64,000 nt of DNA from Methanocella paludicola SANAE (GTDB taxonomy: Archaea; Halobacteriota; Methanocellia; Methanocellales; Methanocellaceae), in NCBI RefSeq assembly GCF_000011005.1, contig NC_013665.1:2705501-2769500 (forward strand), in the 5' to 3' direction. The notes beneath the pieces are model-generated. The model was not told the DNA's origin. It did not search any database and worked only from the letters and a program-made list of their open reading frames with translations. Position numbers and translations under genes: made by a program. This document shows, in pieces, positions 24,232-59,042 of this stretch; position 1 is the stretch's first letter, and every line of letters starts with the position of its first letter.

Positions 24232-24403
24232 CATTTAAGGCCTGACCGTCCTTATAGTACAATTAACAAGCCTTAGCTTAAGAAAGGATCCGCAAGGGGG
24301 GCGCGGAGACAGCGATGTACGGTCGGGTATGCGTATCAAACACATGTCACGGTAGCGACACTAATTTTTGGCGTCTGGAGCCTACGGGCCGGAGGTATGG
24401 CAC

Positions 24404-26335
24404 ATGGTAGGCATGCTTCCAGAAGATAAGGGCAATTTTTACGACCGTCTCCATGACTCTGTGATACTACCCTCCAGCATCGTCGAATTCTACCCGGACG
24501 CCACGCTCGTCGTCGACAACGGGGGCAGGGTCGTCGCCTGGAATAAGGCGATGGGCGAGATGACGGGCGTCCCCGCGGAGGACATGCTGGGAAAAGGAAA
24601 TTACGAGTACTCCATACCGTTCTATGGCAAGCGCATGCCGATACTCGTGGACATGGTCGGGTTGCCCAGGGAGGAGGTCAGCAGCAGGTACACGAACATC
24701 ATCGTGCACGGGGACACGCTTGAGGCGCTGACCATCAAGGCGAAGGTAAAAGGGCGGGACGTCGTCCTCTGGGGGACCGCGGCCAGGCTGTACGGCCTGA
24801 ACGGGAAGCCGGTCGGGGCCATAGAGTCCATACGGGACGTGACCGCGCAGGATATGGTCGAAAGAAAGCTGATGGAGTCCGAGGAAAAGTACCGGACGAT
24901 CATCACGTCGACGAACGATGCTATCATTACGGTGGACACGAAAGGCATTATCACCTACGTTAATCCCAGCGGAATAAAAATGATGGGCAGGCCATACGAT
25001 GACATCATTGGCCGCCATTTCACCTATTTTGTCGTGGACGCCTATAAAGATCGAGCTATACAGGCGTTCAGCCAGGGGATGGTAGGGTCGCCGGTGCCGC
25101 CCCTTGAGATCGAGATGGTCGACGGGGACGGAAGGCAGGTGCCAATAGAGCTGAGCGGCGGGGCACTGCATTCGGGGAGAGTAAAGGTAGGAGCCATCGT
25201 GACCTTCCGGGACGTGAGTGAGCGCTGGAAGGCTCACGAGAGGCTGGAGCGCCGTGTCAAGGAAAGGACAGAGGAGCTGGCCCTGAGCGAGGAAAAGTTC
25301 CGCGTGCTCGCCGAGACCACGTCGTCGGCCATCTTCATCTACCAGAAGGGGCGGTTTAGGTACGTGAACCCCGCCACGTGCAGGATCACCGGCTACTCGG
25401 AAGAGGAGCTGCTGACGATGAACTTCTGGGACTGGGTCCACCCGGATTACCAGGAGCTCGTCAAGAGGAACGGCCGGGCCAGACGCCACGGCCAGCTGTC
25501 TCCGCCGCGGTACGAGATCAAGTTCGTGACCAGGGGCGGCGAGGAGCGCTGGGCCGAGCTGACGCCAGGGCTTATCGAGTACAACAAGCGCCCGGCCATC
25601 CTGGTGACGGCCGTTGACATCACGGACCGCAAGCGGACCGAGGAGGCGCTGAAGAACTCTAAAGAGAACGCCGAGATGTACCTGGACCTCATGGGCCATG
25701 ACATCAACAACATGGACCAGGTGGCATTGGGATACCTGGAGATGGCCATGAAAGCGGTGCAGGAGGACGACCCCGTCTACGCTTACATAAGCCGCTCCTA
25801 TGCAATGCTCCAGGAGAGCTCCAGGCTCATCGATAACCTGAGGAAGGTCCAGCAGGCCGTAGACCGGAAGCTCAGGCTTGAAGCCGTGGACCTCGGGGCG
25901 ATATTATCGGAAGTTGCGGAGGAGTACTCCATCGTGCCCGGAAGGGACGTTACTATCGAGTACCGCCCCGTCGAGTGCCAGGTCATGGCCAGCCGGCTGC
26001 TCAAGGACGTGTTCTCGAACATCGTCGGCAACGCCGTCAAGCACTCCACCGGCCCCCTGAAGGTGTCCATCGGCGTCAGGCCCTGCGTGCATAACGGCGT
26101 GCGCTGTTGCGAAGTGAGCGTCGAGGATGACGGCCCCGGCATACCCGAGGGCCTGAAAGATGCTATCTTCTCCCGCATGAAGCGCGGCAGCACCAAAGCG
26201 CCCGGCAGCGGCCTTGGCCTGTATATTGTGCGGTCCCTGGTCGAAGGTTTTAACGGCCGGGTCTGGGCCGAGGACCGCGTCCCCGGAAAGCCCGGCGATG
26301 GTAGCCGTTTCGTCGTGCAGCTCCCGTCCGTTTAA
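24404..26335 (+). CDS. Soluble PAS-domain sensor histidine kinase
   Basis: 643 residues from the ATG at 24404, which has GGAGGT 7 bases upstream; the TTG at 24368 lies before that site. Three PAS domains (roughly 15-145, 155-275 and 295-410) are followed by a kinase core. The phosphoacceptor region is LMGHDINNMDQ (His432), a form common in methanogen kinases, then NIVGNAVKHS (N box), DDGPGIPEG (G1) and GSGLGLYIVRSL (G2). No membrane segments are seen, so it is a cytoplasmic sensor; the ligand is unknown. No response regulator is adjacent. Its TAA stop lies inside the first bases of the palindromic element at 26332. Confidence 0.92.
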   Translation: MVGMLPEDKGNFYDRLHDSVILPSSIVEFYPDATLVVDNGGRVVAWNKAMGEMTGVPAEDMLGKGNYEYSIPFYGKRMPILVDMVGLPREEVSSRYTNIIVHGDTLEALTIKAKVKGRDVVLWGTAARLYGLNGKPVGAIESIRDVTAQDMVERKLMESEEKYRTIITSTNDAIITVDTKGIITYVNPSGIKMMGRPYDDIIGRHFTYFVVDAYKDRAIQAFSQGMVGSPVPPLEIEMVDGDGRQVPIELSGGALHSGRVKVGAIVTFRDVSERWKAHERLERRVKERTEELALSEEKFRVLAETTSSAIFIYQKGRFRYVNPATCRITGYSEEELLTMNFWDWVHPDYQELVKRNGRARRHGQLSPPRYEIKFVTRGGEERWAELTPGLIEYNKRPAILVTAVDITDRKRTEEALKNSKENAEMYLDLMGHDINNMDQVALGYLEMAMKAVQEDDPVYAYISRSYAMLQESSRLIDNLRKVQQAVDRKLRLEAVDLGAILSEVAEEYSIVPGRDVTIEYRPVECQVMASRLLKDVFSNIVGNAVKHSTGPLKVSIGVRPCVHNGVRCCEVSVEDDGPGIPEGLKDAIFSRMKRGSTKAPGSGLGLYIVRSLVEGFNGRVWAEDRVPGKPGDGSRFVVQLPSV

Positions 26336-26550
26336 GCCCCTCAAAGCAATATAAGAATGCACGAAGACTTTTTCAGCCTCAAAGCGACTCGAAGCTGGCT
26401 CAAAGCCACTCTAAGATTTTTAATATAATTAAATAACAGCGATCAATAAGCCCCTTTTTAAAAAATTTTAGTGTCACTTCAGGCAAGCTTCGAGACACTT
26501 CGTGGCTGAAACAGTCTTCGTGCATTCTTTTGAGGCTTAGAGAAGCTTAA
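26332..26550 (+). repeat. Palindromic repeat element, copy 1
   Basis: A 219 bp imperfect palindrome filling most of the spacer between the histidine kinase and hel308. The left arm starts TTAAGCCCCTC, then AGAATGCACGAAGACTTTTTC, then CTCNAAG heptamers at 26378, 26388, 26399 and 26409 (spacing 10, 11, 10). The right arm is its diverged reverse complement and ends AGAAGCTTAA. The centre (about 26416-26475) is AT-rich. The left end contains the kinase stop codon. The second copy is at 57927-58117 in the opposite orientation. Confidence 0.85.
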
Positions 26551-26600: not shown

Positions 26601-28817
26601 ATGGGGGCGTCCTTTGCGCTAATGAAAATAGCCGAGCTGGACCTGCCGACAGATATCAAGGACTTTTACGAAGCCTCAGGCATCAGGGAGCTCTACCCGC
26701 CCCAGGCGGAGGCCGTAAAAAAGGGCTTCCTGGACGGGAAGAGCCTGCTGGCGGCCATACCCACGGCCAGCGGCAAGACGCTCTTAGCCGAGATGGCCAT
26801 GCTCAAGTCCATCGCCGCCGGGGGTAAAGCGCTCTATATCGTTCCTCTGAAGGCGCTGGCCTCGGAGAAGTTCGAGCGGTTCAGGCAGTTCGAGGGCCTC
26901 GGGGTCAGGGCAGGCATATCCACGGGCGACTACGACTCGAAGGACGAGTGGCTCAAGGATCGTGACATCATCGTCGCCACCTCGGAAAAGACCGACTCGC
27001 TGCTCCGGAACGGGGCCCCGTGGCTGTCGAGCCTCACCGTGGTCGTCGCCGACGAGGTACACCTCATCGATTCTGCTAACAGGGGCCCGACCCTGGAGGT
27101 CACCCTGGCCAAGCTCAAGCGGCTCAATCCTGCCTTGCAGATCATCGCCCTGTCCGCCACCATCGGCAACGCTAAAGAGCTCGCTGACTGGATGAAGGCA
27201 CAGCTGGTCGTAAGCGAGTGGAGGCCGACGGAGCTTAAAGAGGGCGTATTCTTCGGAAGGGCGATCAACTTTTCTAACGATAAGCGGGTCATAAAGACGC
27301 CCGGCCCCGACGACGTTCAGGCGCTGGTCTCCGACACGCTGGCCGAGGGCGGCCAGTGCATCGTGTTTGCCAACACTAGGAAGAGCAGCGAGAGCATCGC
27401 CCAGAAGCTCGCCAAAAGCCTCTCCAGGAAGATGACGGAGGAGGAAAAGGCCGCTTTTTTAGAGGTCAAGCAGCAGGTCATGCGCCACGCGGAGACGGAC
27501 ACGTGCGCCAAGCTCGCCGCCTGCGTGGAGCACGGCGTAGCCTTCCACCACGCGGGGCTCAAGGGCGAGCACCGGCACATCATCGAGAACGCCTTCAGGA
27601 AGAACACCGTCAAGGTCATCGCGTGCACGCCGACCCTGGCGGCCGGCCTTAACCTGCCGGCCCGGCGAGTGATCATAAGGGACTACCGGCGCTTCGACGT
27701 GAACTACGGGAACGTGCCCATACCGGTCCTCGAGTACAAACAGATGGCCGGGCGGGCCGGAAGGCCCGGGCTCGACCCATACGGAGAGGCCGTGCTCATC
27801 GCGAAGAACTACGATGAGCTGGGCGAGCTCATGGAGAACTACGTGCTCTCCCTTCCCGAGCAGATCACCTCCAAGCTGGGCACCGAGCCCGCGATGCGGG
27901 CCCACGTGCTTTCGGCCATCGCCACCGATTTCTGCGGCGACGTCATAGGCCTTAACGAGTTCATGGACACCACGTTCTACGCTCATCAGCGAGGCGACCT
28001 GTCCGCCGTGATCGATAATGTGCTCGATTTCCTGGAGGCCGAGAGGATGATCATAAGGACGGCGGACCGGCTTAGGGCGACCGAGCTGGGCAGGCTGACG
28101 TCCCGCCTGTACATCGATCCTCTATCCGCCTCCATCATCGTGAGGGCGCTGGAGGCCTCCAAGAAGAGGCAGGAACCCTATAACACTGAGATGGCCCTTT
28201 TACAGCTGATAGCCTCGACGCCCGACGTGAAGTCCCTGTACCTCCGCCGGTCGGACTACGGCTGGATCATCAAGTACACGGACGAGCACATATCGGACTT
28301 CCTCACAGATGTGCCCGACGTAGGGGACGAGACGGATTTCGAAGCCTTCCTTTCAAGCGTAAAGACGGCAGCCCTGGTAGACATGTGGGTCAACGAGAAG
28401 AACGAGGAGGAGATGACCGCCTTCTACAACATCGGCCCCGGCGACGTGCGTAATTTAATGGAGACCTGCGTCTGGCTCATGCACTCGACGGCCGAGATAT
28501 CGCATTTGCTGAAAGCGCCCTTGACCCGGGAAGCACGGGAGCTGGCCGTGCGCATCGACTACGGCGTCAGCAAGGAGCTCATGGATCTCATTGAGCTGGA
28601 GGGCGTGGGCCGCGTCCGCGCCCGCCGTCTCTACGAGGCTGGCTATAAGAACAGGGAGGCGCTGAAGCATGTCGACCTCCAGGTACTGGCGGCCTTAATG
28701 GGCGAGAAGGTGGCCGCGAAAATACTGTCCCAGCTCGGGCGTAAAGACGTTCCCGTCTCGACGGAGCCCGACGAAGAGGTCATGGGACAGAGCACGCTGT
28801 TCAGCTTCGGGGATTAA
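26601..28817 (+). CDS. hel308: ATP-dependent DNA helicase Hel308
   Basis: 738 residues from the ATG at 26601, or 731 from the ATG at 26622; the latter begins MKIAELDLP, more typical of the family. Superfamily 2 motifs are clear: TASGKTLLAEM (I), VADEVHLID (II), LSATIGN (III), FANTRKSSE (IV) and AGRAGRPG (VI). The C-terminal part holds the winged helix, ratchet domain and a helix-hairpin-helix (LEGVGRVRARRLYEAG). The very end, GQSTLFSFGD, may be a PCNA-binding-like tail. It unwinds lagging-strand DNA at stalled forks. cgi121 follows after 32 bases, a pairing known in archaea. Confidence 0.96.
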   Translation: MGASFALMKIAELDLPTDIKDFYEASGIRELYPPQAEAVKKGFLDGKSLLAAIPTASGKTLLAEMAMLKSIAAGGKALYIVPLKALASEKFERFRQFEGLGVRAGISTGDYDSKDEWLKDRDIIVATSEKTDSLLRNGAPWLSSLTVVVADEVHLIDSANRGPTLEVTLAKLKRLNPALQIIALSATIGNAKELADWMKAQLVVSEWRPTELKEGVFFGRAINFSNDKRVIKTPGPDDVQALVSDTLAEGGQCIVFANTRKSSESIAQKLAKSLSRKMTEEEKAAFLEVKQQVMRHAETDTCAKLAACVEHGVAFHHAGLKGEHRHIIENAFRKNTVKVIACTPTLAAGLNLPARRVIIRDYRRFDVNYGNVPIPVLEYKQMAGRAGRPGLDPYGEAVLIAKNYDELGELMENYVLSLPEQITSKLGTEPAMRAHVLSAIATDFCGDVIGLNEFMDTTFYAHQRGDLSAVIDNVLDFLEAERMIIRTADRLRATELGRLTSRLYIDPLSASIIVRALEASKKRQEPYNTEMALLQLIASTPDVKSLYLRRSDYGWIIKYTDEHISDFLTDVPDVGDETDFEAFLSSVKTAALVDMWVNEKNEEEMTAFYNIGPGDVRNLMETCVWLMHSTAEISHLLKAPLTREARELAVRIDYGVSKELMDLIELEGVGRVRARRLYEAGYKNREALKHVDLQVLAALMGEKVAAKILSQLGRKDVPVSTEPDEEVMGQSTLFSFGD

Positions 28818-57203: not shown

Positions 57204-57323
57204 ATGGCGGAAAAGGAAATATTAAAGCACCATTATTATAAAAGGGTGCAGCATTCCGATTGCCTCGATGCCAACCCGTGTATTTATTCCGACAGTGTTA
57301 TTACCTTGAAGTCGGAACAATAA
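57204..57323 (+). CDS. Possible 39-residue small ORF, weak evidence
   Basis: An ATG at 57204 opens 39 codons (starting [16 protein letters not shown]) to TAA at 57321. A TATA-like ATTATAAAG lies too close (about 57188-57196) for a normal leader, and no ribosome binding site is seen. The codon use is less GC-rich than in neighbours. It may be chance. Confidence 0.2.
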
Positions 57324-57358
57324 ATAATAATATCGATAATATTAATGGAGTCATCATA

Positions 57359-57925
57359 ATGGCACCTATAAAGAACACGTTATCATCGCCTATCAAGAAC
57401 GCGTTTAACCTGGATAAGATCCCCTTTTTTAGAGAGAGAAAAAAGGACAGGAGGAACATTGCCCTGCTGGTCGACGGCCCGAACATGCTACGCAAGGAGT
57501 TCCAGATCGACCTGGAGGTGGTCAGGGACATCCTCAAGCGCTACGGGGACATCAAGGTCGGCAAGGTGTTCCTGAACCAGTACGCCTCCGATAAGCTGGT
57601 CGAGGCCATCGAGAACCAGGGCTTCGAGCCCATAATCGGCTCGGGCGACGTGGACGTCCGCCTGGCCGTGGACGCCGTGGAGCTCGTGTTCAGCCCGACC
57701 ATCGACACCATAGCGATCGTTACGAGGGACGCCGATTTCAAGCCGGTGCTGGCGAAGGCGAACTCCCACGGCAAGGAGACCATCGTCTTCGGCGCCGAGC
57801 CCGGCCTGTCCATCGCCCTCAAGAACGTCGCCGACTTCGTCATCGTGTTCGACGGGAACGAGTGGCACGAGGTCACCAAGTCCCACGACCGCGAGATCGA
57901 TACGACAGAGCCCGTGCAGCAATGA
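57359..57925 (+). CDS. NYN-domain (LabA/DUF88-like) putative nuclease
   Basis: 188 residues from the ATG at 57359, with TGGAGT upstream; the longer reading to 57260 lacks support. NYN (PIN-like) motifs: [15 protein letters not shown] with the first Asp near residue 41, a central [13 protein letters not shown], then [26 protein letters not shown]. These acidic residues form the metal site of PIN-like RNases. Archaeal members of this family are uncharacterised. Its stop is followed one base later by the palindromic element copy 2. Confidence 0.85.
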
Positions 57926-57926
57926 G

Positions 57927-58117
57927 TTAAGCTGCACTAAAAATCATAAGAAGGCTCGAAGGCTTTTTCAGCCACGAAGACCTCGAAGTTGGCCTGAAGT
58001 ATCACTAAAAATTTTTAATAATATTTTCTAAATTCTTAGAGTCGCTTAGAGCAAGCTTCGAGTCACTTTGAGGCTGAAAAGTCTTCGTGCATTCTTATCA
58101 GGCTTAGAGGGGCTTAA
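57927..58117 (-). repeat. Palindromic repeat element, copy 2 (opposite orientation to copy 1)
   Basis: A 191 bp imperfect palindrome between convergent genes. In plus-strand reading its right arm carries CTTNGAG heptamers at 58035, 58045, 58056 and 58066 (spacing 10, 11, 10, as in copy 1), then GAAAAGTCTTCGTGCATTCTT and GGCTTAGAGGGGCTTAA. The left arm begins TTAAGCTGCACT. The right arm matches the left arm of copy 1, so the copy is inverted. The end codons and stop of the DHH gene (58104-58117) lie inside it. Confidence 0.85.
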
Positions 58118-59042
58118 GTTTCTTGATAGCCTCGGCGACACAGGCGTCGAGCACCGTATCCGCGCTGGCTTTTCCCTTAACGACCAGCCCGGCGGCCGCC
58201 GCGTGTCCGCCGCCGCTGCCCCCGAACCTCTTTCCCACGTCGCTGAGGAGCGCGGCCACGTCCAGGGATACGCCCCTCTTGACCCGGCCCGAGACGCGCA
58301 CCTCCCGGTCGAGCTCGGAGCCCACGAAGGCCACGTCCGCCCCTATGGCCACGAGGGATGCGGCCGACTGGGCGCCGAACGAGCTGACTTTTGAGGTGAC
58401 GATGAGGTGGTCGCCTTCCCGGGTGAGCGTCATCCGGGACGCCGCCTTCAGGGTGGCGATGCGGCAGGAGACGTCGGTGGGCACCTGCGTTAGGAAGTCC
58501 AGCACGTCGGAGAACTGGATGCCTCCCCTTTCGAGCATGCGGGCGGCGACCTCGAACGAGTGGGGCGGCGCATACCGGAAGTGGCCGGTGTCGGTGACCA
58601 TGGCCAGGAGCAGGGCGAAGGCGATGTCCGCGTCTACCGGCTGCCCGCTCTTCTCGTAAATATCGTACACGATCTCGGCCGTGGCCGAGGCCTTCCGTAT
58701 GAGCGAGATGCGGCAGAGCTTCGACAGGTCGCCGGGCTCGTGGTGGTCGATGACCGCGCAGCTTTTTAGCTCCGGGTAGCCCGTCTGGACGAGGCTGGAG
58801 GTATCGACGACCACGGTGATGCCGTATTTAGACGGGTCCGGCCTGACGACCGCTGCGACCTTCAATTTCTCCGAAAGCATCTCAGCCATGGTGCTGAGGC
58901 CGTCCTCGACCCCCACCGTGCCCCCGAAGATGCGCGCGAGCGCGTACGCGCTGCCGAAGGAGTCGACGTCCGCGTTCTTATGGCATAAAAAAAGGATGTT
59001 CTCGTACTTCTGAAGCTCGTCATAAAAGGCCTTCTCGTCCAT
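58104..59042 (-). CDS. DHH-family phosphoesterase
   Basis: 312 residues. N-terminal CHKNADVDSFGSAYALA and VVVDTSSL give the metal site (the DHH-type Asp and His), and VIDHHEPGD is the DHH motif itself. The C-terminal DHHA1 domain has GGSGGGHAAAAGLVVKG. Such proteins cleave phosphodiester bonds, for example NrnA-type nanoRNases or cyclic-dinucleotide phosphodiesterases; the substrate is not known. The last few codons (KPL and stop) come from the palindromic repeat. The HisA-like gene lies upstream on the same strand with no gap, so the pair is an operon. Confidence 0.9.
   Translation of the reverse strand: MDEKAFYDELQKYENILFLCHKNADVDSFGSAYALARIFGGTVGVEDGLSTMAEMLSEKLKVAAVVRPDPSKYGITVVVDTSSLVQTGYPELKSCAVIDHHEPGDLSKLCRISLIRKASATAEIVYDIYEKSGQPVDADIAFALLLAMVTDTGHFRYAPPHSFEVAARMLERGGIQFSDVLDFLTQVPTDVSCRIATLKAASRMTLTREGDHLIVTSKVSSFGAQSAASLVAIGADVAFVGSELDREVRVSGRVKRGVSLDVAALLSDVGKRFGGSGGGHAAAAGLVVKGKASADTVLDACVAEAIKKLKPL

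Follow-up and report, generated by a model that had tools for sequence, protein, structure and literature searches.

The two palindromic elements found in the window (the whole stretch of 64,000 nucleotides that was analysed, positions 2705501-2769500 of the single 2,957,635-bp contig, G000:C1, of the methane-producing archaeon Methanocella paludicola SANAE) probably belong, as gene-less, MITE-like, non-autonomous forms, to a superfamily of small mobile elements linked to GxxExxY genes (TIGR04256, PF13366). This reading connects a palindrome that had no explanation with a protein family that has a name but no known function, and offers an explanation for both, as the GxxExxY genes would be the cargo of small elements with inverted arms and the scattered CNCNNAG palindromes would be gene-less copies of these elements. 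The features of the two copies and of their neighbouring genes, the latter named as judged from sequence, are as follows (window coordinates).

26332-26550, no strand: copy 1, entire palindromic element
26360-26415, + strand: copy 1 left arm core, with heptamers CACGAAG at 26360 and CTCNAAG at 26378, 26388, 26399 and 26409
26416-26466: copy 1 AT-rich centre, 51 bp against 21-25 bp in most copies
26467-26522, - strand: copy 1 right arm core, with the 10/11/10 geometry of the left arm and minus-strand heptamers CACGAAG 26522-26516, CACGAAG 26504-26498, CTCGAAG 26494-26488, CCTGAAG 26483-26477 and CACTAAA 26473-26467
57927-58117, no strand: copy 2, entire element, between convergent genes
57955-58009, + strand: copy 2 left arm core, with heptamers CTCGAAG at 57955, CACGAAG at 57973, CTCGAAG at 57982, CCTGAAG at 57993 and CACTAAA at 58003
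58010-58034: copy 2 AT-rich centre
58035-58089, - strand: copy 2 right arm core, with minus-strand heptamers CTCNAAG at 58035-58041, 58045-58051, 58056-58062 and 58066-58072, and CACGAAG at 58089-58083
24368-26335, + strand: PAS/histidine-kinase-like ORF upstream of copy 1, ending within the element
26601-28817, + strand: helicase-like ORF downstream of copy 1
57260-57925, + strand: NYN-domain-like ORF to the left of copy 2, its stop 2 bp short of the element
58104-59042, - strand: DHH-phosphoesterase-like ORF to the right of copy 2, its stop within the element

The sequence-only reading had described both copies as imperfect palindromes, each with one arm carrying four CTCNAAG heptamers, and this description held. 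All eight heptamers were found at the positions listed with a spacing of 10/11/10, the set in copy 2 reading CTTNGAG on the plus strand. The palindrome arms are 78% complementary over 90 nt in copy 1, and 76% over 41 nt plus 87% over 15 nt in copy 2, and both copies fold with energies far below those of dinucleotide shuffles (z -10.6 and -6.9 respectively). The second arm of each copy is laid out in this way too (9/11/10 in copy 2), with the variant heptamers CCTGAAG and CACTAAA, and it also bears an outer CACGAAG or CTCGAAG 18 bp off. A 'CCTGAAG' arm and a 'CTCTAAG' arm are present in each copy, their order swapped between copies, which bears out the proposal of one asymmetric element in two orientations (arms pairing as A-D and B-C). 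The motif said to be shared by the copies, AGAATGCACGAAGAC, is present in each arm of copy 1, whereas copy 2 has it in the right arm alone.

Both copies extend into neighbouring genes. The left end of copy 1 contains the TAA stop codon (26333-26335) with which the upstream sensor-kinase gene ends, and the end of copy 2 (58104-58117) encodes the last residues, KLKPL, and the stop codon of the minus-strand DHH-like gene. The element ends therefore supply stop codons and, in copy 2, the last residues, so that insertions alter the C-termini of neighbouring proteins; the elements shape genomes in this way at some gene ends.

A BLAST search with copy 1 against its own genome gave 75 matches that fall into 30 loci, and the two elements of the window thus belong to a larger family, hereafter the focal family. 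The arm alignment comprises 57 arms and 27 paired copies, both window copies among them. From the outside in, each arm consists of TTAAGCCCCTCTAAG, ATAAGAATG, CACGAAG, ACTTTTTCAGC and four heptamers spaced 10/11/10; an AT-rich centre follows (21-25 bp in most copies) and then the same arm inverted. The paired copies thus consist of inverted arms that are both built as arrays of CNCNNAG heptamers. The heptamer consensus in the focal family is CWCDAAG; across arms, letters 1, 3, 5, 6 and 7 are 96% conserved, as compared to approximately 59-60% for letters 2 and 4 and 74% for the spacers, and the heptamers are kept in copies that are otherwise about 33% different. The focal family was not found in the 40 other genomes searched. 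None of the focal copies in the genome holds a GxxExxY gene, and they can accordingly be filed only as a non-autonomous form.

The link to GxxExxY comes from sister families in the same genome, namely a CGCGAAG family with approximately 24 loci and a CACAGAG/CACGGAG family with at least 40 loci. The genome has six GxxExxY genes, each of them placed between inverted arms of such palindrome families, and two gene-bearing CGCGAAG copies occur at unrelated sites with 99.6% identity. An alignment of the focal arms with the CGCGAAG arms scored 59, against a mean of 17.8 and a maximum of 33 in 1000 shuffles; judged by this alignment, the focal arms are homologous to those of the gene-bearing CGCGAAG elements. 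As there is no focal copy with a gene, mobilisation of the focal family by GxxExxY rests on this arm homology.

The same arrangement was observed in other genomes. Several of the GxxExxY genes read in relatives of the Methanocella family sit between inverted arms with CNCNNAG-type heptamers, and a genome scan gave 80 further GxxExxY loci from many bacterial phyla. When an array is defined as a chain of at least three heptamers, inverted CACNAAG-type arrays are present upstream in the sense orientation at 59 of 79 of the bacterial loci and downstream in the antisense orientation at 56 of 80, whereas arrays in the wrong orientation are found at 13/79 upstream and 16/80 downstream and the background tiles give 13/1852. 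In a second set of loci, all twelve archaeal and fourteen of the twenty bacterial ones have an array on one or both sides. Alignments of upstream with downstream flanks exceed the 99% null for palindromes at only eight of 68 loci, which indicates that the bacterial arms have heptamers in common rather than full complementarity. Each of 20 bacterial genomes contains between 2 and 20 GxxExxY copies. Eight plasmid records carry GxxExxY, and none was found in viral contigs and phages.

The bacterial heptamers are spaced 8, 8 and 10 bp apart, and a scan of the bacterial loci with a strict spacing of 9-12 bp gave almost no arrays because of the 8-bp steps. The suggestion that the heptamers are placed about one helical turn apart therefore stands for the focal and CGCGAAG families and fails for the bacterial arrays, so strict helical phasing is not general. 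This difference in spacing (10/11/10 against 8/8/10) speaks against the mobile-element reading given above, as do the archaeal GxxExxY loci L113, L115 and L116, which are flanked by other inverted repeats. These repeats, also present at L112, are long GC-rich hairpin-like sequences or of the GCAGATAAAC type with a 10-bp period, and show that this class of elements varies in its end sequences.

Two further observations concern the form of GxxExxY loci. At two loci of the relative G001 (L075 and L081), the entire heptamer array in the arms flanking the gene has been expanded on both sides into tandem minisatellites. Three genomes (G184, G204 and G273) contain many GxxExxY fragments in which only some 35-44 positions at the start of the profile remain, which suggests recurrent internally deleted copies.

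Evidence of movement was obtained for gene-bearing relatives of the focal family. In the cyanobacterium G295, a unit of arm, gene and arm of approximately 605 bp lies between cobI and cobJ, a junction that is uninterrupted in five cyanobacterial relatives. The filled allele has the 7-bp sequence AATGAAA on either side, although part of this repeat coincides with a start codon, which would be preserved in any case. For the focal family, copy 2 is absent from the matching convergent junction in two relatives (G001 and G002). Target duplications are clear in few cases; none was found at the two 99.6%-identical gene-bearing CGCGAAG copies and none is shown in the focal family itself.

The AT-rich centres appear to be hot spots for insertion. 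Four focal copies (L043, 596276-596732; L047, 1744702-1745123; L056, 2817458-2817935; L058, 2885456-2885913) carry inserted elements of other heptamer families in their centres, and so do two CGCGAAG copies (L234 and L238). If the insert and one AAAATA, a 6-bp duplication, are taken out of the focal copy at 596 kb, a 25-bp centre is restored, as read by eye. A single focal palindrome (L060, 2949746-2951356) has an ISH3-like transposase element, coding for 382 aa, in its centre.

That transposase gene raises the alternative that the palindromes are MITEs of an ordinary DDE or HUH transposase, with GxxExxY as a passenger or accessory gene that has the same ends. Gene-less copies, an A+T-rich target and a duplication of 6-7 bp would all suit such an origin. 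However, the ISH3-like insertion sequence occurs in one copy only, where it was inserted into the centre, and it is GxxExxY that lies between the arms across very many phyla. The genome also lacks a Y1 (IS200/RAYT) transposase, as a search for PF01797 (Y1/HUH) found none in it and was positive in control genomes. We regard an ordinary transposase as unlikely. Among the copies read, no autonomous DDE element with the same ends was seen. Two outcomes had been named beforehand as refuting the sequence-only reading. The first, a lack of further copies, is contradicted by the 30 loci; the second, a match to a transposon or MITE family already known and with its transposase defined, was not obtained, and a family of elements encoding a nuclease only was found instead. 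REP/RAYT membership was likewise rejected, given the lack of a Y1 transposase in the genome and of covariation between arms.

The GxxExxY protein was modelled with a pLDDT of 94 and a pTM of 0.87. The top Foldseek match of the model is SSO0001, which we take to be a Cas4 nuclease, and the match is modest (E 1.4e-3, TM 0.5); lambda exonuclease and AdnAB are weaker fold matches. Cas4 profiles also match GxxExxY weakly, and a sequence search for a solved GxxExxY structure found none. The four residues D75, E85, K87 and Q99, which form a D...ExK...Q motif, show no variation among 56 sequences. Motif and modelled fold agree in placing GxxExxY as a predicted PD-(D/E)XK nuclease of the Cas4/RecB-like type, and the invariance of the four residues implies that the nuclease is probably active. 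A Holliday-junction resolvase acting on cruciforms was considered and set aside, as the fold matches are Cas4, lambda exonuclease and AdnAB and the 50 matches listed include no resolvase. In open full texts, GxxExxY (TIGR04256/PF13366) is mentioned only in passing, and no earlier description of the element was found in the open-access literature; a literature search by sequence string returned chance matches only, mostly primers.

These observations suggest how such elements might move. The full-length form would consist of an inverted arm, one GxxExxY nuclease gene and a second inverted arm, with the gene occupying the place that is the AT-rich centre in gene-less copies. The CNCNNAG heptamer arrays would serve as double-stranded recognition sites for a mobility protein, and GxxExxY, alone or together with host factors, may bind the arrays at both ends and process these ends. 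A copy would then insert at an A+T-rich site by the stop codon of a gene, with a duplication of approximately 6-7 bp, and gene-less copies would be moved in trans. Both the binding of heptamers and the catalysis of movement by GxxExxY are what we infer from these arrangements, and so is the mobilisation of the focal family, of which the genome holds no gene-bearing copy, by GxxExxY or by a lost relative of it. We know of no clear precedent for transposition by a lone PD-(D/E)XK nuclease, and a cryptic host factor or transposase may be involved. It is conceivable, and we propose it tentatively, that the elements represent a new class of prokaryotic mobile DNA, spread over archaea and many bacterial phyla, that pairs a single small Cas4-like PD-(D/E)XK nuclease with heptamer-array ends and uses no DDE, HUH, tyrosine or serine recombinase, with the window palindromes as non-autonomous descendants that were inserted at stop codons. 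Movement by the nuclease alone would be new chemistry for bacterial and archaeal mobile DNA. With a gene of approximately 130 codons and a pair of DNA ends of about 50-100 bp, the proposal is directly testable.

The genomic location of the focal copies, which the sequence-only reading had proposed to check, is strongly biased to the 3' ends of genes: 25 of 30 lie within 20 bp of a stop codon, as compared to 7.6% of intergenic positions, and 15 of 30 lie between convergent genes. This location, together with the strong predicted hairpins and the T-runs on both strands of the centre, would also suit palindromes that act as RNA, either as long hairpins or as bidirectional transcription terminators at gene ends. 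Selection for a hairpin would, however, make the arms of the same copy match best, and they do not; the within-copy arm identity is 0.652 against 0.666 when permuted (p=0.97), which indicates no covariation, although the within-copy deficit may partly reflect that many copies pair one A-type with one B-type arm. This argues against a long RNA hairpin. Conservation follows the heptamers rather than the pairs, so selection seems to act on a site that recurs along double-stranded DNA. The folding of single arms does not exceed that of shuffles, and Rfam gave no match above the gathering score within the window. Siting at 3' ends is also known from REPs and is expected from selection against damage to promoters and genes. 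An RNA role is thus quite improbable and was dropped as the main reading, and the earlier preference for heptamers as putative protein-binding sites on DNA is favoured by the arms without covariation and by fixed letters that are about 96% conserved.

The focal copies are also unevenly distributed over the chromosome, in relation to the following domain.

G000:C1:2603348-2957635 and 1-282242: origin domain (orc1/cdc6 +/-360 kb), which contains the window

A total of 22 of the 30 focal copies fall in this domain where 7.3 are expected (p 2e-8), its 360-kb width having been picked after the data were seen, and they are spaced more evenly within it than at random (CV 0.57 against 0.96, p 0.003, post hoc). 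Neither of the two sister families is enriched there (3/40 and 2/24). The focal family might accordingly be, or have been co-opted as, a site that organises the origin domain of the chromosome and is bound by a host protein, similar to matS or parS, and the retention of heptamers in otherwise diverged copies would agree with this. Eight copies lie outside the domain, however, and the lack of the focal family in relatives means that it is not an ancient system. The origin half of the genome is reported to be the conserved, syntenic half (PMC3146512), and longer survival of old copies there is the simplest reason for the bias. A chromosome-organising role is therefore very unlikely, and we keep to the reading of the palindromes as gene-less mobile elements.

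Comparison with known systems places the focal copies beside several families. The GxxExxY family (TIGR04256 / PF13366 PDDEXK_3) has its gene between sister-family arms or bacterial inverted heptamer arrays, and the focal copies, which have no gene, have only the arms in common with it. The MITEs of DDE insertion sequences are similarly gene-less, multi-copy inverted repeats with a short target duplication, but the full-length relatives of the focal family encode a nuclease only, and a DDE transposase with matching ends was not seen among the copies read. The Rpn (YhgA-like) proteins are likewise PD-(D/E)XK nucleases with several copies per genome, although Rpn and GxxExxY belong to different Pfam families. 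To our knowledge, palindromic heptamer ends are not known for Rpn. Rpn is reported to be connected with RecA-independent recombination and labelled a putative transposase (PMC5350276), and is later described as a toxin-antitoxin defence (PMC10327210).

REPs are multi-copy extragenic palindromes at gene 3' ends, and a RAYT (TnpA_REP) gene has inverted REP copies on its flanks (PMC2817692, PMC3733652); REP elements occur mainly downstream of genes (PMC3733652). The elements described here differ from them in size (heptamer arrays of approximately 190 bp as compared to REP hairpins of 20-40 bp), in the enzyme, which is a predicted PD-(D/E)XK nuclease rather than a Y1/HUH transposase as in RAYT, and in that compensatory changes have been suggested for REPs whereas the focal arms have none. 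They resemble the REP/REPIN and RAYT system in having an enzyme gene flanked by inverted repeat copies, the repeat spreading on its own as well, and in their location at the 3' ends of genes.
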